DNA from: Bullifex porci | GTDB taxonomy: Bacteria > Spirochaetota > Spirochaetia > Sphaerochaetales > Sphaerochaetaceae | NCBI RefSeq assembly: GCF_009695635.1 | Contig: NZ_VUNN01000003.1 | Coordinates: 124,001 to 188,000, forward strand | DNA: 64,000 nt | Reading direction: 5' to 3' | Shown: positions 40,330-50,253 of the stretch, piece by piece | Position numbering within the stretch: position 1 is the first letter of the stretch | Layout: every line of letters begins with the position of its first letter | Notes under the pieces: model-generated | The model's input: the letters and a program-made list of their open reading frames with translations, nothing else | The model's database searches: none | What the model was told of the DNA's origin: nothing | Program-made: the position numbers and the translations under genes

Positions 40330-40402
40330 AAATTAACCGCCGAGAAAGCTCACGCGCCTTGGCCGTGGGATGAAAGGCGGTAATGCGTAATGCTATAAAA
40401 TG

Positions 40403-40411
40403 TGCTATAAT
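40403..40411 (+). promoter_or_regulatory. Extended -10 promoter of tnpB
   Basis: TGCTATAAT, an extended consensus -10, ends 6 nt before ATG 40418; no Shine-Dalgarno. Predicts leaderless tnpB mRNA. Confidence 0.55.
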
Positions 40412-40417
40412 GATGTC

Positions 40418-41551
40418 ATGCGGACACTGACAGTAAAACTGTACAATAGCGATGACTTCGGATACCTTAGTGATATGATAAATATCGCCGGGATCATATA
40501 CAACACGGCACTGACAATCATACAGGACTACTACGATGCGACAGGGAAGCTTTTGGATAAATATGAACTCCAGAAACAGCTCCGTGGTCTTCGCAACGAG
40601 GATGAAAACCACCACTGGCGTTATGTAGGAAGTCAGGCGGTACAGGAGATAACCGACAGGATATACAGGGCGTACCGGCTGTTTTTCACTAACAGGGAGA
40701 AGGGAGTCAAATGTTCGCCACCGCGTCGTCGCAAGGTCAAAAAGTACAAAAGCGTCACCTACAAACAGGCGGGATACAGATTCCTTACTGGCGGACGTAT
40801 CAGCATAAACGGACACATCTACAGATACTGGGACTCCTATGACGGACTCCTGGAACGGATCAAAATCAAGACCGTAACGGTAAAGCGCAACATACTCGGA
40901 GAGTTTTTCGTCTACGTCACCACCGACAGCGCCGTCACCATGCGTGAAACCAGGGACGGACGCGGTGATGTCGGCATGGACTTTGGACTCAAGATGTTTC
41001 TTTCGCTGTCGGACGGCAGTGTGATTAGATCCCCGGAGTTTTTCAGACAGGGAATAAACGAAGTCCGAAAAGCGAACCGCGCCCTGAGCCGTAAGGTGAT
41101 GGGGAGCAACGGATACGAGCGTGCACTGAAGGCACTGTACCGCAGGCACCAGGACATCGCGAACAGACGCAGGGACTGGTTCTGGAAGCTAAGCCACGAA
41201 CTCTGTTCAAGGTACGGCGTCATAGCCATAGAAGACCTTAATATCAAGGTTATGGCGAGGATGTGGGGACGCAAGGTCCACGACTATGCGTTTTCGGAGT
41301 TTGTGGAAATCCTGGAGTGGTGTGCCCGAAAGTACGGGACCAGGGTCATCAGGATTGGACGGTACTACCCGTCGTCCCAAACCTGCTCCGTCTGCGGGCA
41401 TGTGTGGCCGAGCACCAAAGACCTCAGTGTCCGTGAGTGGACCTGCCCAGAATGCGGGGTGTATCACGACAGGGACGTAAATGCCGCGGTGAACATACTC
41501 GCTGAGGCAAAGCGTATCATGAACCGAATGGAACAGGCGAAGGACGCCTAG
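40418..41551 (+). CDS. tnpB: TnpB RNA-guided endonuclease
   Basis: 377-aa TnpB, the compact ancestor of Cas12. RuvC residues appear intact: Asp188 in VGMDFGLK, Glu272 in IAIEDLN, Asp353 in HDRDVNAA. A zinc ribbon CSVCG...CPECG (323-346) lies before the third. Start at 40418 rather than 40400: the family begins MRTLTVKL-like and the -10 box sits 6 nt upstream. Very different base composition from neighbours, a sign of transfer. Potentially active nuclease. Confidence 0.93.
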   Translation: MRTLTVKLYNSDDFGYLSDMINIAGIIYNTALTIIQDYYDATGKLLDKYELQKQLRGLRNEDENHHWRYVGSQAVQEITDRIYRAYRLFFTNREKGVKCSPPRRRKVKKYKSVTYKQAGYRFLTGGRISINGHIYRYWDSYDGLLERIKIKTVTVKRNILGEFFVYVTTDSAVTMRETRDGRGDVGMDFGLKMFLSLSDGSVIRSPEFFRQGINEVRKANRALSRKVMGSNGYERALKALYRRHQDIANRRRDWFWKLSHELCSRYGVIAIEDLNIKVMARMWGRKVHDYAFSEFVEILEWCARKYGTRVIRIGRYYPSSQTCSVCGHVWPSTKDLSVREWTCPECGVYHDRDVNAAVNILAEAKRIMNRMEQAKDA

Positions 41552-41875: not shown

Positions 41876-42484
41876 TCATCTACAATGACGACCCTTAAGG
41901 ACCTCTACGACCTCACTTAAGGATGTATCCTTTTGAGCTAATAGAACTAAGAAATGATAAATAAGGTCTGCAGCCTCTCCTAAGAAGAGCTCCTTATTGT
42001 TATCCTTACTCTCAATTATTAATTCTACAGCTTCCTCTCCAACCTTCTGTGCAATCTTATTTAATCCACGAGAGAATAGATGGTTAGTATATGAACCCTC
42101 CTGAGGATTATTGCGTCTATCATTAATTACATCTTCAAGATAGTATAAGAACTCGCTAGAAGTCATCTCACTTGGTTCATTTTCTTCATTAAAGCAGGTA
42201 TCAGCACCAGTATGACATACAGGGCCTGTTGGAATAGCCTTAACTAGTAAGGTATCCCCATCGCAATCGGCAAGAATCTCTCTAACCTGTAGGAAATTTC
42301 CTGAGGTTTCACCTTTAGTCCAGATCCTCTTTCTAGATCTTGACCAGAAGGTCACAAGACCTCTGTCGAGTGTGAGCTGATAAGCTTCAGCGTTCATATA
42401 ACCAAGCATTAAAACACGATGTGTTACAGCGTCCTGTACAATTGCAGGAACTAATCCATCACCCTTTTCAAAATCAATAACCAT
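41876..42484 (-). CDS. hisIE: Bifunctional phosphoribosyl-AMP cyclohydrolase / -ATP pyrophosphatase
   Basis: Steps 2 and 3 of histidine synthesis. 202 aa: HisI domain (~1-110) with [18 protein letters not shown] and the metal segment CDGDTLL...[12 protein letters not shown]; HisE domain (~115-202) with [20 protein letters not shown]. Start at 42484 (MVIDFEK) gives family length; the in-frame start at 42523 would overlap hisF. Last gene of the his operon. Confidence 0.94.
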
Positions 42485-42506
42485 AATATTTACCAATCCG
42501 TTAATG

Positions 42507-43271
42507 CTATAACCTAACAGCAATTCCTTGTTTTTGTAAATACCTTTTTAGCTCAATAATGTCTATTTCGTGGTAATGAAATACCGAAGCAGCTAAGGCA
42601 GCATCTGCAAATCCAAATGTAAAAACATCACTAAAATGCTCCATAGTACCAGCTCCACCCGATGCTATTACAGGAATAGAAAGATTTGTACTTACTTTTT
42701 TTGTAATATCACAGGAAAAGCCCGCCTTAGTTCCATCTGCATTCATACTAGTTAATAGTATTTCACCAGCTCCACGCTCCTGACACTCTTTGCACCAAGA
42801 AAGAGCATCTATACCAGTTGGAGTTCTTCCTCCATCGATATAAACCTCATAGGAGGATGGAAAGCTCTCATTACGTCTTACATCTACCGCAGTAACGACA
42901 CATTGAGAGCCAAAGCGCTCTGCAAAGGTCGATATTATATCTGGCTTTCTTACTGCCATAGAGTTAATAGAAATTTTATCAGCCCCAGAGGATAATAGCT
43001 TATAAGCATCTGCTTCACTCTTTATTCCACCTCCAACTGTGAATGGAATATTAATACTTTCAGCTATTCTTTCAACTAGCTGTGATAGCGTCTCTCTATT
43101 TTCTACAGTAGCTGTAATATCCAAAAAAACTAGCTCATCTGCACCCGATTGACTATATCTTACAGCATTCTCTACAGGATCTCCTGCATCGGCAAGTGAT
43201 AAAAAGTTTATTCCCTTAACAGTTCTTCCATTCTTAATATCTAAGCAAGGTATTATTCTTTTTGCTAGCAT
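42507..43271 (-). CDS. hisF: Imidazole glycerol phosphate synthase, cyclase subunit
   Basis: (beta/alpha)8 barrel forming IGP and AICAR with His[37 protein letters not shown], and the [11 protein letters not shown] phosphate site. Catalytic Asp in CLDI and VTAVDVRR are present. 254 aa. GGGAGGT ribosome site; overlaps hisA by 7 nt. Confidence 0.96.
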
Positions 43272-43981
43272 TCTACCTCCCTAAGCTCCTCTAGAGTTAG
43301 ATATCCCTCATAATAAGCTTTACCAACAATTGCTCCTGAGAGCTTCATATTTTTCAAGCGCAATAAATCCTCAAGAGAGGAAATTCCACCTGAAGCAATT
43401 ACATTTATATCAGGAATACTCTTTGAAATATCCTCATATAGCTCAAAGGAAGGTCCTTTAAGCATTCCATCCTTTGATATATCTGTACTTATACAGTAGC
43501 TAAAGCCCCTATTCTTCCACTCCTGAATAAAGGTAATAACATCTATATCACTTGTTTCAAGCCAACCAAAGGTTGCTATCATACGATTTTTGCAATCGGC
43601 ACCTAATATAAGCTTATCGTTATATTTTTCAAGCCACGCTAAAACTAAGGAAGGATTTTTAACGGCAATTGAGCCACAGGTAACAAAGCTAGCTCCTGCT
43701 GCTAAAGCACTCTCTAATGCTGAAGTACTCTTAACACCACCTCCAAAATCAACGATTAGGGAGGTATTTGAGCAAATATTTTCAAGAGTTTTTAAGTTTT
43801 TTATCTCACCACTCTTCGCACCCTCTAAATCAACAACATGAAGTCTTGTAAAGCCATAGTCCTCAAAGCGCTTTGCAGCCTCCAAAGGATTTTTGAAGTA
43901 GCTCTTCTTTGCTTCGTAATCACCCTTAGTAAGACGTACACACTCACCGTTGATAATATCTATTGCAGGGATTATTTTCAT
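43265..43981 (-). CDS. hisA: ProFAR isomerase
   Basis: Amadori isomerase, barrel homologous to His[49 protein letters not shown] and [12 protein letters not shown]. 238 aa. Start overlaps the hisH stop (ATGA). Confidence 0.95.
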
Positions 43982-44574
43982 AGTGATACCTCTAAGAAAT
44001 TCTTTAAGAGCTTTTCTCCAACCTCTCCACTCTTTTCCGGGTGGAATTGAAAGCCATAAAAATTATCCTTTCTAAGACCAGCTGAAAATGTAACATTATC
44101 ATAAAAGCACGTAGCAATAGTATTTTCTGAGTACTCAACGTAGTAGGAATGAACGAAATAGAAGTACTCTTTTTCTCTTAAATTCTTAAATATTGGATCT
44201 GATGAAAATGTAACCTCATTCCAACCAACATGAGGTATTTTTACTCCTACATTTTTATCAAAGAGTCTAACCTTATTAGCAGTAATATTTAATAGGTCAA
44301 CATTTCCCTCCTCTGAAAAGGAGTTCATCAGCTGCATACCTAAGCATATTCCTAAAAAGGGTCTTTGGTACTCCTTAATTGTCTCAATTAGCTCTCTCTT
44401 TTTAAGCTCATCCATAGCCCAAGAGGCAGCTCCTACTCCAGGGAATATCATTCTATCTGAGCTTTTAATTACATCTATATCAGAGGTAAGCTCGGCCTTC
44501 ACACCAAGCCTAGAAAGAGCATTCATAACAGAGCGAGTATTTCCAGCATTGTAATCTATAACTGCAACCATCAT
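43978..44574 (-). CDS. hisH: Imidazole glycerol phosphate synthase, glutaminase subunit
   Basis: Class I glutaminase supplying ammonia to HisF. IDYNAGNTRSV, oxyanion strand region FPGVGAASWAM, catalytic Cys in FLGICLGMQLM, and His/Glu in GFQFHPEKSG. 198 aa. ATGATG start: the second ATG (44571) is better spaced from AAGGAG. Confidence 0.95.
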   Translation of the reverse strand: MMVAVIDYNAGNTRSVMNALSRLGVKAELTSDIDVIKSSDRMIFPGVGAASWAMDELKKRELIETIKEYQRPFLGICLGMQLMNSFSEEGNVDLLNITANKVRLFDKNVGVKIPHVGWNEVTFSSDPIFKNLREKEYFYFVHSYYVEYSENTIATCFYDNVTFSAGLRKDNFYGFQFHPEKSGEVGEKLLKNFLEVSL

Positions 44575-45701
44575 AAAACTCCTTTTGTAGAAGGTAGAGA
44601 ATTTGAGGAAGGATCTCTTTTTACTGCAACCTTAATAGCTCTTGCAAACGCCTTAAATAGAGCCTCTGCCATGTGATGAGCATTTCCAGTAGTAACCTTA
44701 AGATATAAATTACATTGAGCTGAATTAGAAAAGGATTTAAAGAAGTGCTCTATCATCTCAGTTGGGAAGGTACCGATATACTCTCTTAGGAATTTTACAT
44801 CATAAATAAATTCACTTCTTCCTGAGAAATCAATTGCGACAGTTGCAACTACATCATCCATAATTAGGATATCTGAGCCATAACGGTTAATTCCCCTCTT
44901 ATCACCTAGAGCCTTTCTTATTAATGAACCCAAGGTTATTGCTAAATCCTCAACACTATGGTGCTCATCAACCTCTAAATCACCCTTAAAGGTTCCCTCT
45001 AAATCGATGTGAGAGTGTTTAATAATTTGTTCAATCATATGGTCAAAGAAACCAATATTTGTCTTTAATTCACCCTTTCCACTTCCATCAAGATTTAAAG
45101 TTAGCTTAAAGGAGGTTTCCTTAGTAGTTCTATCTAAGGAGGCAATTCTAGGGCTCTTTACCTTATCCTGAGTTAAAAAGGCTGCAATCTCTTGCCAGGA
45201 ATCACTAATTAAGCAAATTGTATCCTTATACTCATCTGGGACATTTTCTTCAGCTGAAAACCAAATACCCTTACACCCTAAGTTTTTTGCAAAGGCCATA
45301 TCGGTTAATCTATCACCAATCATAAAGGATTTTTCAAGACACCACTCACCATTTTGATAATCACTCATCATCCCAATGCCTGGCTTTCGTCCTGTACACT
45401 CATCACTTGGAAGTGAGTAATCAACTAAAATATCATCAAACTCAATTCCTTCACCCTGGAATGTATTAACAATATGATTTTGAACTGGATAAAAAGTTTC
45501 AAATGGGAGACTTGGAGTTCCTACTCCATCCTGGTTTGATACCATTACAAGGCTATAGTCCGAGTTATCATAAATTTTCTTCAAGCTATTAAAAACTCCC
45601 GGCATAAAGCTTAGCTTTTCAAAGCAATTATTATGCTTAGAGTTTACAAGCACGCCATCACGATCAAGAAAGAGCGCTCTCTTTTTCATCTCAAAGTTCA
45701 C
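44571..45701 (-). CDS. hisB: Bifunctional histidinol-phosphatase / imidazoleglycerol-phosphate dehydratase
   Basis: 376 aa. HAD domain (~1-165): ALFLDRDGVLV, VMVSNQDGVG, MIGDRLTDMAFA. IGPD domain (~185-376): GFFDHMIEQIIKHSH, VDEHHSVEDLA, GNAHHMAEALFKAFARA (metal His clusters). The fused form is as in E. coli. GTG start: AAGGAGG lies 6 nt before it, inside the hisC end. Confidence 0.95.
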   Translation of the reverse strand: MNFEMKKRALFLDRDGVLVNSKHNNCFEKLSFMPGVFNSLKKIYDNSDYSLVMVSNQDGVGTPSLPFETFYPVQNHIVNTFQGEGIEFDDILVDYSLPSDECTGRKPGIGMMSDYQNGEWCLEKSFMIGDRLTDMAFAKNLGCKGIWFSAEENVPDEYKDTICLISDSWQEIAAFLTQDKVKSPRIASLDRTTKETSFKLTLNLDGSGKGELKTNIGFFDHMIEQIIKHSHIDLEGTFKGDLEVDEHHSVEDLAITLGSLIRKALGDKRGINRYGSDILIMDDVVATVAIDFSGRSEFIYDVKFLREYIGTFPTEMIEHFFKSFSNSAQCNLYLKVTTGNAHHMAEALFKAFARAIKVAVKRDPSSNSLPSTKGVL

Positions 45702-46746
45702 TTAATACCTCCTTGAGTGTAGAAAGCATAAGATCATTCTCAGCTCTTGAGCCGATAGTTATTCTAAGACAGGAAGCACAAAGCACCTCCTTAGATCTAT
45801 TTCTAACAATGATACCTCTTTTCGAAAGCTCATCATAAGCCTCATTAGCTCTCTTTACTCTAACAAGTAAGAAGTTAGTATCACTTGGGAAGATTTTTTT
45901 AACTCCATCTATAGTCTCAAGAGCACTTCTAACTCTCTCTCTTTCTATTGTAATTTTCTTAGCCTCCTCCATTACCTTCGAGTAGCTATTAAGAGCCTTG
46001 ATAGCACATAGCTGAGAAGGAAGTGGAATATTATAAGGATATTTTACCTTATACATTATTGAAGTAATCTCTTCAGAAGCTATAGCAATACCAATTCTTC
46101 CTCCAGCTAAGCCCCATGCCTTACTAAGAGTCCTTAGTACAACTATCCTCTCATTTTCACTAATTAATGAAATAGCACTTTCGTTTGTAGAAAAATCAAT
46201 ATATGCCTCATCAACAACTGTAATACCCTTGTTGTATTGAGCAAGCTCCTTCACTTGGGAAAGTGGTATAGAAGCTCCAGTTGGGTTATTAGGAGAGCAG
46301 AGGAACATAAGCTTTGGAGCTTTTTCATCTAATTCTCTCTTAATGCTCTCAATATCTAATGTGAAATCTGACTTTTGTACTACACTAATAATATTTACAT
46401 CATTAATTGCAGCTAGAACCTTATACTCTCCATAGGTTGGAGGCATTATCAAAACAGAGTCTCTTTTGCACTCACAAAACATCCTATAAAGGATATCTAT
46501 TAGCTCATCAGAGCCATTTCCAATAGTAAGATTTTTTACATCTACTCCATATGCTTTTGCAAATGCCTTCTTTACTTCAAGTGAACGTGGATCTGGATAG
46601 CGATTAATACGATCAAAGGAAATCATATTTTGAAAGTTTTCATTTGCATCTAGAAATACTGCAGCAGTGCCAGAGAAATCATCTCTAGCAGAGGAATATG
46701 GCTCTAGGACTCTAATATTATCTCGTAGTAGCTTTTCAATACTCAT
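45691..46746 (-). CDS. hisC: Histidinol-phosphate aminotransferase
   Basis: PLP aminotransferase. FLDANENFQN, NRYPDPRSLEVK, IGNGSDELID, CSPNNPTGASIP, VVDEAYIDFS, and the lysine site RTLSKAWGLAGGRIG. 351 aa. Overlaps hisD (ATGA) and hisB (11 nt). Confidence 0.95.
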   Translation of the reverse strand: MSIEKLLRDNIRVLEPYSSARDDFSGTAAVFLDANENFQNMISFDRINRYPDPRSLEVKKAFAKAYGVDVKNLTIGNGSDELIDILYRMFCECKRDSVLIMPPTYGEYKVLAAINDVNIISVVQKSDFTLDIESIKRELDEKAPKLMFLCSPNNPTGASIPLSQVKELAQYNKGITVVDEAYIDFSTNESAISLISENERIVVLRTLSKAWGLAGGRIGIAIASEEITSIMYKVKYPYNIPLPSQLCAIKALNSYSKVMEEAKKITIERERVRSALETIDGVKKIFPSDTNFLLVRVKRANEAYDELSKRGIIVRNRSKEVLCASCLRITIGSRAENDLMLSTLKEVLSEL

Positions 46747-48038
46747 AGCATCCTCACTCTAGCGGCTTCAGCATGAGCTGTTAAATCCTCTGCCTCTGCC
46801 ATAGTAATAATAGTAGGTGCAAGTGATTTAATTCCTTCCTTAGTTAGCTCCTGAACTGTAATCTTTTTAATAAAGCTATCTAAGCTAACACCAGATGAAG
46901 CAGTAGCATGTCCTGAGGTTGGTAGTGTATGGTTAGTTCCACTAGCATAGTCACCTGCAGACTCAGGGGAGTACGCTCCAATAAATACAGAGCCCGCACT
47001 CTCAACGTCAGCTAGTATTTCATATGGCTCCTTAGTATTTATGATTAAATGCTCAGGAGCGTAGCTATTGATAATATCAATTACAGAGCTATCATCATAG
47101 AATGCAAAGGCCGCTGAATGTGATAGTGATGGAAGCATATACTCCTTTCTTCCAAGTTTTTCGACCTCATCCTCTAAGCATTTTTCTATCCTTAAATAGA
47201 TCTCATCTGCTTCCTTTTCATCCTTAGCTTTAATAACAAGCATGACTTGAGAATCCTTACCATGCTCAGCTTGGCTTAATAGGTCTGTGGCAACATATAG
47301 AGGGGAAGCTTCCTTATCACAAACAACCATTACTTCACTTGGTCCTGCGACCATATCTATTGCACAAACATTTGAAGCTATATTCTTTGCAAAGGCTACA
47401 TAGCGGTTTCCTGGTCCAAAGATTTTATCAACTCTCTCAACAGATTCTGTGCCATAGCATAGTGCTGCTATTGCTTGAGCTCCTCCTGCCTTTAAGACAT
47501 GAGTCACACCACATTTTTTAGCTGTATATAGTACAACAGGATTAACAATTCCTCCCTTAGAAGGAGTTGCTAAGGTAATTGTCTTACACCCTGCAACCTT
47601 AGCAGGAATAGCGAGCATTAAAACAGTTGAAAATAGAGGAGCAGTACCACCTGGGATATAGAGACCAACCTTAGATATTGGAACTATCTTTCTAAAGCAG
47701 CGTACACCCTTCTCAGTCTCAACATCCTCCCCTACCTGCTTTTGAGCACTATGGAACCTATAAATATTTTCATAAGCTCTATCAATTGCTTTTTTTAGCT
47801 CCTCAGGTACACTCTCTTCAGCTACCTTAAATTCAGCTTCAGATACAAATAGAGATGTTAATTCAGAGTGGTCAAAGGCTTTTTCATATTCATAAATTGC
47901 CTTATCACCATTTATTCTTACATTCTCCATAATATTTAAGACAGCGCTCTTTACTGCCTCATCATCACTTTGAACTCTCTTAAGTATTGGGAGATATTCC
48001 TCCTTAGAGATATTTTTATAATACCTTATTAGCGCCAT
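46743..48038 (-). CDS. hisD: Histidinol dehydrogenase
   Basis: Two-step NAD oxidation of histidinol to histidine. VGLYIPGGTAPLFSTVLMLA, KIFGPGNRYVAFAK, IDMVAGPSEVMVV, SQAEHGKDSQ (Zn/active residues), APEHLII, GTNHTLPTSGHAT. 431 aa. Four bases separate it from hisG. Confidence 0.96.
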   Translation of the reverse strand: MALIRYYKNISKEEYLPILKRVQSDDEAVKSAVLNIMENVRINGDKAIYEYEKAFDHSELTSLFVSEAEFKVAEESVPEELKKAIDRAYENIYRFHSAQKQVGEDVETEKGVRCFRKIVPISKVGLYIPGGTAPLFSTVLMLAIPAKVAGCKTITLATPSKGGIVNPVVLYTAKKCGVTHVLKAGGAQAIAALCYGTESVERVDKIFGPGNRYVAFAKNIASNVCAIDMVAGPSEVMVVCDKEASPLYVATDLLSQAEHGKDSQVMLVIKAKDEKEADEIYLRIEKCLEDEVEKLGRKEYMLPSLSHSAAFAFYDDSSVIDIINSYAPEHLIINTKEPYEILADVESAGSVFIGAYSPESAGDYASGTNHTLPTSGHATASSGVSLDSFIKKITVQELTKEGIKSLAPTIITMAEAEDLTAHAEAARVRML

Positions 48039-48042
48039 AAGC

Positions 48043-48909
48043 TTACTCCGTCATCTTTTCAATATTCATTACAAGGATACCTTCAGCACCAAGCTCTCTA
48101 AGGCTTTCAAATACCTGCCAGAAGCGATCCTCTGATACTACAGATTGCACAGAAACCCAATCTGAATCAAGCAGTGGAGTTACTGTTGGGCTCTTCATAC
48201 CACCAATAATTGCGGCAGCTTCATTGAGGTTCTTCTTAGGAAGGTTAAAGAGAATATATTTCTTGTGCTTTGCAAGAGAAACGGTATCCATTCTAACTAG
48301 TAAACGATTTAAAATATCAAATCTTTCCTTCTCATCCTCTTCAAAGCTCTTTCTACTGATCATAACAGCGGAGGTATAGTAAATTGGTTCAACCTCCTTT
48401 AAGCCATTCATCTTAAGAGTAGTACCAGTTGATACAAGGTCTGAGATACAATCTGCAATACCGACTTGAGGAGTTATCTCTACAGAGCCAGAAACATTAA
48501 CAAAGGAGGCATTTACACCAGCTTCCTTTAATACCTTTTCAGTAATTCTAGGATATGAGGTTGCTATTCTCTTTCCCTCTAATGAGCTAAGGCCCTTATA
48601 ATCAAAGTCATTAGGAACTGCAATTGATAAGCGACAAGCAGCAAACCCAAGATCTCTTACTATCTTTAAATCATAACCCTTCTCATCATATTCATTCTTA
48701 CCAACGATACCAATATCAGCAACTCCATCATTTACATAGGTTGGGATATCATCATCACGAACAAACAAGAATTCAAGTGGGAAATTGCTACTAAAGGTTC
48801 TTAATACACGTGCATCATCACTAAACTCAATTCCACAGGATTTAATGATATCAAGACTTTTCTCTGATAGTCTTCCACTTTTCTGAACTGCAATTCTTAG
48901 GTTTTTCAT
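48043..48909 (-). CDS. hisG: ATP phosphoribosyltransferase, long form
   Basis: First committed step of histidine synthesis. 288 aa, the long HisG with a C-terminal regulatory ACT-like domain; no HisZ is needed. LRIAVQKSGRLSEKSLDII, VADIGIVGKNEYDE, CISDLVSTGTTLKMNGL. AAGGAGAG ribosome site. Preceded by the hisL attenuator. Feedback inhibition by histidine is a family property. Confidence 0.95.
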   Translation of the reverse strand: MKNLRIAVQKSGRLSEKSLDIIKSCGIEFSDDARVLRTFSSNFPLEFLFVRDDDIPTYVNDGVADIGIVGKNEYDEKGYDLKIVRDLGFAACRLSIAVPNDFDYKGLSSLEGKRIATSYPRITEKVLKEAGVNASFVNVSGSVEITPQVGIADCISDLVSTGTTLKMNGLKEVEPIYYTSAVMISRKSFEEDEKERFDILNRLLVRMDTVSLAKHKKYILFNLPKKNLNEAAAIIGGMKSPTVTPLLDSDWVSVQSVVSEDRFWQVFESLRELGAEGILVMNIEKMTE

Positions 48910-48932: not shown

Positions 48933-48961
48933 AAAAAAAAGTCCCCGACATGTGCGGAGAC
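48933..48961 (-). terminator. his attenuator terminator
   Basis: Minus-strand RNA stem GUCUCCG / CGGGGAC (one U.G pair) with 7-nt loop CACAUGU, followed by eight U. Lies between hisL and the hisG ribosome site. Upstream alternatives: CATCCA in hisL pairs with TGGATG 3' of it; CCATA-GTTCGA-TATGG. Confidence 0.85.
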
Positions 48962-48992
48962 CTCAGTATATGTAGCATCCAGCCATATCGAA

Positions 48993-49043
48993 CTATGGTT
49001 TAACAAAGTGATGATGGTGATGGATGTTTCTTACAGCTTTCAT
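48993..49043 (-). CDS. hisL: his operon leader peptide
   Basis: Sixteen codons: MKAVRNIHHHHHFVKP. Five consecutive histidine codons (residues 8-12), stop TAG. It lies 45 nt before a rho-independent terminator and hisG, the arrangement of the classical his attenuator: when His-tRNA is scarce the ribosome stalls at the His codons and an antiterminator forms. Unlike enterobacterial hisL it has no Shine-Dalgarno; a -10 box ends 7 nt upstream, so translation should start on a leaderless 5' end. The antiterminator pairing is not settled by eye. Confidence 0.88.
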   Translation of the reverse strand: MKAVRNIHHHHHFVKP

Positions 49044-49050
49044 ATGCTTA

Positions 49051-49079
49051 AGCATAGTTATTTCATTTTTTTTGGTCAA
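49051..49079 (-). promoter_or_regulatory. his operon promoter (leaderless at hisL)
   Basis: Minus strand TTGACC (49079-49074), 17-nt spacer, TATGCT (49056-49051), 7 nt to the hisL ATG. The TGA stop of the upstream lysE-type gene lies inside the -35 box. Confidence 0.7.
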
Positions 49080-49660
49080 TATTTTGACAATATTTCTTTT
49101 AAAAGCTGATAAACATTTAACATTGCAAGGATAAAGAGTGATGAGGAAAAGATTACATTCATTAGCACTCTTCTCTTTTTATAGAATTGACTTATAATGG
49201 AGCCCGCAACAGCCCACACTAAGCCGCTTAATAAGCAAACTATTGGAATAAGCATTAGAAGTAGAAGCTCATGCTCACTATTTATGATATACATTGTTTG
49301 AGCGCTAAAGCATAGAAGCATTACCTTAACATTAGCAAATTGCATCACCATTCCAGTAACAAAGCTTCCACCTCCAGGTGTAATATTTCCCTCCTTAGAG
49401 AGGAGAATATGAATTGCTAAATATAGTAGATAGATTATCCCAAGGCTCTTAAAGACTAGTAGCAGAGAAGGAATAATTTTAATTAAAAGAGAGATAATTA
49501 GGTATGTTAATATGTCAACTATTAAAATTCCTACAAACATCCCATAGTTGAGATATATCCCTCTTCGTAACCCCTTCTCTGAAGCATTCGCCATAGACAT
49601 AATTGTATTTGGTCCTGGCGTAATAGCCATTGCTACCATGTATATAAAGAGCTGGAGCAT
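49076..49660 (-). CDS. LysE/RhtB-family amino-acid exporter
   Basis: 194 aa, about six membrane segments. AITPGPNTIMSMANASEKGLRRG at the start (split here as AITPGPNTIM and GLRRG) is the family signature. Exports amino acids or homoserine lactones; substrate unknown. It is immediately upstream of the his operon but has separate transcription signals, since the his promoter starts at its stop codon. Two nt follow the DUF308 stop. Confidence 0.85.
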   Translation of the reverse strand: MLQLFIYMVAMAITPGPNTIMSMANASEKGLRRGIYLNYGMFVGILIVDILTYLIISLLIKIIPSLLLVFKSLGIIYLLYLAIHILLSKEGNITPGGGSFVTGMVMQFANVKVMLLCFSAQTMYIINSEHELLLLMLIPIVCLLSGLVWAVAGSIISQFYKKRRVLMNVIFSSSLFILAMLNVYQLLKEILSKY

Positions 49661-49662
49661 CT

Positions 49663-50253
49663 TTATTTCTTTTCACTCCACTCTGCTTCTGCTATCTTTT
49701 CTTCCTTCTTAAAGCTTCTCATAACAGACCAAAGCTTAATTGACCAGAGAATTACAAATACACCACTAGTAATTACAATAACTCCAAGGACTAATAATAG
49801 AGTTGAATTAATAAAGTTTGGGAATATAAACATAAGAAGTGCAAAAACGATGTAAAGCCATCCTGATGGTCCATAGTAGAATAGCTCTGTAAATCCATTT
49901 TTCTTTATCATCCAGCTCTCAATTACCTCTGAGAGACCTGCAAATAGAAGGTTAAATGCAATTAACCAAACAACCCAGGACGCAACTGCTGTGCCAGGAG
50001 CTATGGCTGCAAAGTAAACAACTAAAATACTGATAATTAGGTTTATCAGGGTTTTTACCATGTTAAAGCGTATTATTCCGCCCATTCCCTTAAATTTATA
50101 TGAGGTGACTAAAGCAGTTACTGCCTCTACAATGTTATATACACCGAAAGCAATAACACCAATCTTTACGACTGCATTAGGAGCAAGGACAAATAATAGG
50201 CCTAGTAAAATCAAAATAATACCACTTGTGATATATGATAGATATTTCTTCAT
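49663..50253 (-). CDS. HdeD-like (DUF308) membrane protein
   Basis: 196 aa with six hydrophobic segments in pairs (e.g. SGIILILLGLLFVLAPNAVV and GVYNIVEAVTALV), the DUF308/HdeD pattern. The gammaproteobacterial HdeD is an acid-resistance membrane protein; role here unknown. GGAGG ribosome site. Ends with a charged C-terminus. Co-transcribed with the LysE-type gene. Confidence 0.8.
   Translation of the reverse strand: MKKYLSYITSGIILILLGLLFVLAPNAVVKIGVIAFGVYNIVEAVTALVTSYKFKGMGGIIRFNMVKTLINLIISILVVYFAAIAPGTAVASWVVWLIAFNLLFAGLSEVIESWMIKKNGFTELFYYGPSGWLYIVFALLMFIFPNFINSTLLLVLGVIVITSGVFVILWSIKLWSVMRSFKKEEKIAEAEWSEKK

Follow-up and report, generated by a model that had tools for sequence, protein, structure and literature searches.

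The histidine biosynthesis operon of Bullifex porci is most probably controlled by a ribosome-mediated transcription attenuator whose leader peptide would be translated from a leaderless mRNA. The sensing element is almost certainly a short ORF with a run of histidine codons, which, to judge from its sequence and its recurrence in related genomes, would report the supply of histidine to the operon behind it.

The his leader of Bullifex porci

The analysis covered a window of 64,000 nucleotides, that is, the whole stretch of contig DNA under study. All elements of the leader lie on its minus strand. The leader ORF, hisL (MKAVRNIHHHHHFVKP, 16 codons, 49043-48993), has no Shine-Dalgarno (SD) sequence and contains five His codons in a row (CAT CAC CAT CAT CAC). 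It is preceded by a promoter (49079-49051) with the -35 box TTGACC (49079-49074), a 17-bp spacer and the -10 box TATGCT (49056-49051), and seven bases (TAAGCAT) separate the -10 box from the ATG. A terminator stem (48964-48938) with eight T (48940-48933) follows the ORF. The initial annotation had described exactly this arrangement, namely a 16-codon ORF with five consecutive His before hisG, a stem followed by eight U, and TTGACC-17-TATGCT with 7 nt to an ATG that lacks an SD, and each of these elements was found again at the coordinates given here. Directly 3′ of hisL and the terminator lies a complete his operon of eight genes, beginning with an SD-led (AAGGAG) hisG (ATP phosphoribosyltransferase, 48043-48909, minus; TIGR00070) and continuing with hisD, hisC, hisB (bifunctional), hisH, hisA, hisF and hisIE (41876-48038, minus; NCBIfam models).

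The poly-His ORF before hisG is not a product of chance, given both its recurrence in relatives (see below) and the behavior of shuffled sequence: when the 167-bp region was dinucleotide-shuffled 3000 times, no ORF with at least four consecutive His appeared. Indeed, the run of five His in hisL is the only one in the six frames of the 64-kb window. The promoter scan by itself was not significant in the AT-rich DNA of the window (6 found versus 8.3 expected), and the case for a leaderless transcript therefore rests on comparative data. A longer leader (MLKHMKAV...), starting from an in-frame ATG within the -10 box, was considered and rejected; the closest relatives do not share that ATG. The leader region has no Rfam match at the gathering score, the weak ones (among them Phe_leader, 14.2 bits, E 7.4) being noise, and the Rfam His_leader covariance model does not match the B. 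porci leader.

The surroundings of the operon also deserve mention. The -35 box overlaps the TGA stop codon of an upstream LysE-type transporter gene (window 49076-50253), which has the his operon on one side and a membrane-protein gene on the other. The closest relative (L002) has this membrane-protein gene directly beside the his promoter, and the transporter gene therefore looks inserted in B. porci. A gene for a TnpB-family RNA-guided nuclease (window 40400-41551) lies beside the 3′ end of the operon.

Four segments of the leader RNA could form alternative helices. Segment 1 (49009-49026, minus) comprises the His codons and their flank and pairs with segment 2 in predicted folds (1:2). Segment 2 (GATATGGCTGGATGC, 48975-48989, minus), directly 3′ of the leader stop codon, has either segment 1 or segment 3 as its partner. 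Segment 3 (48947-48964, minus), the 5′ arm and loop of the terminator, may pair with segment 2 as an antiterminator (2:3) or with segment 4 (48933-48946, minus), which consists of the terminator 3′ arm and the eight-T run. From this anatomy, its conservation and spacing, and the pairing potential of the three helices, we infer the transcription start, the leaderless translation and the histidine response of the following model. RNA polymerase would start at, or at most 2 nt from, the A of the leader AUG. A ribosome would load onto the bare 5′ AUG and trail the polymerase. As long as tRNA-His is charged, this ribosome would reach the stop codon and cover the start of segment 2, so that the 3:4 terminator would form and transcription would stop. 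With uncharged tRNA-His, it would stall on the five His codons in segment 1 and free segment 2, whose pairing with segment 3 would prevent termination and allow the eight-gene operon to be transcribed. A ribosome-free transcript, for instance one arising by read-through from the LysE-type gene, would presumably fold into 1:2 and 3:4 and stop.

Conservation of the leader and its pairing

Relatives were sampled by two HisG searches and by drawing 297 genomes from the class Spirochaetia, and 77 distinct hisG loci with orthologous HisG were read. They belong mostly to organisms named as Spirochaetales or Spirochaetaceae bacteria, including Candidatus Ornithospirochaeta, in line with the spirochaete origin that the initial annotation had guessed. 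It had also proposed a search of related genomes for a poly-His ORF before hisG, and the search found this ORF with a terminator at 74 of the 77 loci. The lack of conservation that it had named as grounds for refutation was therefore not observed. All 74 leaders contain a run or cluster of His codons, with the other residues varying, and a hairpin with a T run was present in every leader parsed for one. The three loci without a leader are those of two sister species (L055, L062) and one with a distant HisG (L117, 44% identical). In the two sister species, hisG lacks the leader, promoter and terminator seen at the other loci, and the sequence before it resembles the coding region of a different gene.

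When promoter, leader and terminator were combined in one covariance model, it matched 104 of 395 Spirochaetia genomes at E ≤0.01, most strongly before hisG, with unrelated promoters and terminators among its weakest matches. His leaders of the same layout, with gaps of 6-9, also stand before the other type of HisG in two more families (L158, L159, L162, L164, L166 and L173). The B. porci genome yielded no further element of this kind, and it also has no close leuA.

RNAalifold on a MAFFT alignment of the leaders returned almost no structure, because leader lengths differ, and pairing was therefore tested by duplex energies and by swapping segments between species (L007, L008 and L010, whose terminators could not be parsed, left out; L009, whose hairpin was mis-parsed, retained in the swap and shuffle tests and omitted from the ribosome modelling). 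Native 2:3 duplexes had a mean energy of -11.1 against -9.0 when swapped, and native 1:2 duplexes -13.6 against -10.9; in each case the native pairs were stronger in 10000 of 10000 permutations, a count that ignores kinship. The result was the same with 44 representatives, one per distinct segment 3. Segments 2 and 3 vary in sequence by clade yet stay complementary, as in GGCAUG/CAUGUC, GGAAUGCG/CGCAUUUC and GCCAUGAUGGG/CCUCCCAAUGGC. For single sequences the 2:3 shuffle z-scores are modest (mean -1.4), with 19 of 71 below 0.05.

The contest between antiterminator and terminator, for which the initial annotation had suggested folding, was modelled with the ribosome represented as a mask. With no ribosome, 1:2 predominated (mean 16.7 pairs) and 2:3 had only 2.4 pairs, whereas 2:3 formed in 65 of 70 leaders with the ribosome on the His codons. 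With the ribosome on the stop codon, 2:3 was weakened from -11.2 to -6.3 kcal/mol; in the leader of B. porci itself the effect of masking the stop was small (-9.2 to -8.5 kcal/mol). In these models the antiterminator is mutually exclusive with its alternatives and follows ribosome position, weakly so for the stop state of B. porci. As judged from the sequences, the attenuator logic of 1:2, 2:3 and 3:4 pairing is conserved among the relatives, which supports the histidine attenuation originally proposed for this locus.

Initiation of leader translation

The comparative data bear on where transcription begins. The distance from the start of TTGAC to the leader ATG is 35 bp in 30 of the 74 leaders, 36 bp in 29 and 37 bp in 4 (63/74 in total). 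TANNNT ends exactly 6 nt before the ATG in 50 of the 74 and 7 nt before it in 6 (56/74), with about one or two leaders at each other position; this count used no distance scoring, and the earlier picking of starts had slightly favored the 35-bp distance. In sigma-70 promoters generally, a -10 box occupies positions -12 to -7, so that one ending 6 nt before the ATG would place +1 on its A. In B. porci the spacing is 7, against a modal value of 6, so a 5′ end of 2 nt is possible, and we predict transcription to start at, or no more than 2 nt from, the A of the hisL ATG. The leaderless-type leaders also lack an SD before the start codon: the best anti-SD duplex upstream of 65 of them averaged -1.3 kcal/mol, compared with -10.1 for hisG genes. 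Leaderless initiation of the his leader, as first suggested for B. porci, is thus very likely on the strength of these comparisons.

A natural exception exists within the genus. In eight species within one subclade of B. porci's genus, the distance from TTGAC to the ATG is 49-65 bp, that is, a 5′UTR has been inserted, and the inserted stretch contains an SD-like AGGAG in each of the eight. Five SD-led leaders of the genus were scored and gave anti-SD energies of -6.8 to -11.6 kcal/mol. On the HisG tree, the SD state is found in this subclade and in one distant row (L024, with a weak SD), and the leaderless state over all other branches; one leaderless species (L009) is nested inside the SD subclade. 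This is the distribution to be expected where translation of the leader is required but can be initiated in either way.

In other families of the class, leaders of the leaderless type are also found before other genes, named here from reading the sequence. The covariance model detected one (MNKKLLLLSLSSLFCCKR) before leuA in another family. The sequence upstream of leuA was read for 22 genes, the first two and 20 more, and 14 of these regions carry a leader with Leu codons whose -10 box ends 6-8 nt before the ATG, although, with gaps of up to 18 nt allowed in the promoter search and leaders picked by eye, these counts support generality and do not measure it. The leaders with a Leu-rich ORF and terminator (L160, L163, L179-L183, L185-L188 and L191-L193) belong to that other family. 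The remaining regions comprise an SD-led leader (L197), a candidate with a GTG start (L195), an ambiguous case (L198) and five in which no leader was seen (L184, L189, L190, L194 and L196). Single cases with a terminator are a leader with a Thr run (MKSLTAITTTTPTLFLHRRWL, L168) before an asd-like gene and one with a Tyr/Phe run (MIIFRQSKVFYYYFSAPPITGK, L174) before a tyrS-like gene. A leaderless-type small ORF (MNTYKALQLNNSAKASVINSLW) with a terminator also precedes an aminotransferase-like gene (L165).

Leaderless initiation may not be confined to leaders. The B. porci genome appears to be rich in leaderless protein genes: it has 26 matches to the leaderless promoter pattern (L075-L100), mostly before long ORFs, compared with 9 in a reversed control. 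Two of the matches (L082 and L083), on one contig, have identical promoters and TetR-like starts about 2.1 kb apart, with one ORF of 201 aa and the other truncated to 26 aa, and represent a partial duplication. Elsewhere in the phylum, a prediction covering 18 spirochaete genomes placed leaderless genes in 6 of them (PMC3160421), and mapping in Leptospira interrogans gave about 440 mRNAs whose 5′UTR is <10 nt (PMC5243855).

These observations could also be accommodated by an ordinary his attenuator with a 5′UTR, short or longer, with the transcription start lying upstream of the ATG and SD-independent translation of the leader, perhaps from an A-rich standby site. The upstream DNA is indeed AT-rich, and the eight species of the same genus do carry a 5′UTR; yet theirs comes with an SD, as a longer 5′UTR in this genus always does. 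The promoter directly adjoins the ATG, and the spacing of 6-7 nt between -10 box and ATG is fixed across several families, which argues against a start further upstream. We consider such an attenuator improbable. Still less credible, and hardly to be expected, is a constitutive terminator, or a T-box or riboswitch leader, in which the His run has no sensing role. The terminator before hisG is strong, and T-boxes control his genes in other bacteria (proposed for C. glutamicum; PMC3896937), but no Rfam family is matched at the gathering score, and it is the His codon cluster that is kept while the rest of the peptide varies. Conservation of the 1:2 and 2:3 helices, and the replacement of the His run by a Leu run in the leuA leaders, likewise speak against it.

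With ribosome-mediated attenuation from a leaderless transcript as the preferred reading, it is tempting to go further. We think there is a reasonable, if not strong, probability that leaderless leader peptides are general and ancestral for the attenuation of amino-acid operons (His, Leu, Thr, Tyr/Phe) in Spirochaetia, and that one genus displays a natural change from the leaderless to the SD-led form. The presence of both forms of the same attenuator in one genus offers a natural comparison, which bears on the question of how RNA polymerase and a ribosome loaded on a bare 5′ AUG stay in step when there is no SD-led initiation.

Relation to known attenuators

Leaderless attenuator peptides as such are already known, and the statement in the initial annotation that none had been described was mistaken. 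In Sinorhizobium meliloti, the trpL transcript has its 5′ end at the ATG of a leader ORF for 14 aa, and regulation is by transcription attenuation (PMC7298713); this system differs in responding to Trp, in belonging to an alphaproteobacterium, and in the additional action in trans of its RNA and peptide. Streptomyces lividans leuL, trpL, ilvL, thrL and metL encode leaderless leader peptides, several with terminators (PMC8079986), and Corynebacterium diphtheriae ilvB has a leaderless attenuator (PMC5784534). Like the B. porci leader, S. lividans leuL, trpL, ilvL and thrL and C. diphtheriae ilvB have a regulatory codon run and, for several of them, a terminator hairpin followed by U residues, and RNA-seq places their transcription start at the start codon; they differ in being from Actinobacteria, and none is His-dependent. 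Mycobacterial poly-Cys leaderless sORFs attenuate an operon (Canestrari et al. 2020, cited in PMC9031893) and would resemble the B. porci leader in being short, leaderless and built around repeated codons for a single amino acid; as summarized in that review, they respond to Cys and control downstream translation, whereas the B. porci type has His codons and a conserved intrinsic terminator with a T run. In the literature searched, which lay outside most subscription journals, neither a leaderless his attenuator nor an attenuator leader peptide studied in Spirochaetes came to light.

The his leader of E. coli and Salmonella (hisL; Rfam His_leader) is another close parallel, with a poly-His leader peptide, alternative hairpins, an intrinsic terminator and an operon starting with hisG. 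The B. porci leader has five consecutive His where the 18-aa E. coli/Salmonella peptide has seven (PMC3896937), comes from a different phylum, lacks an SD and an Rfam match, and would have no 5′UTR. The B. porci leader would extend leaderless attenuation, hitherto known from Actinobacteria and Sinorhizobium, to the phylum of the Spirochaetes. Three things are unexpected against this background: how far the layout is conserved, that it also precedes operons for other amino acids in the class, and that a natural switch to SD-led initiation has taken place.
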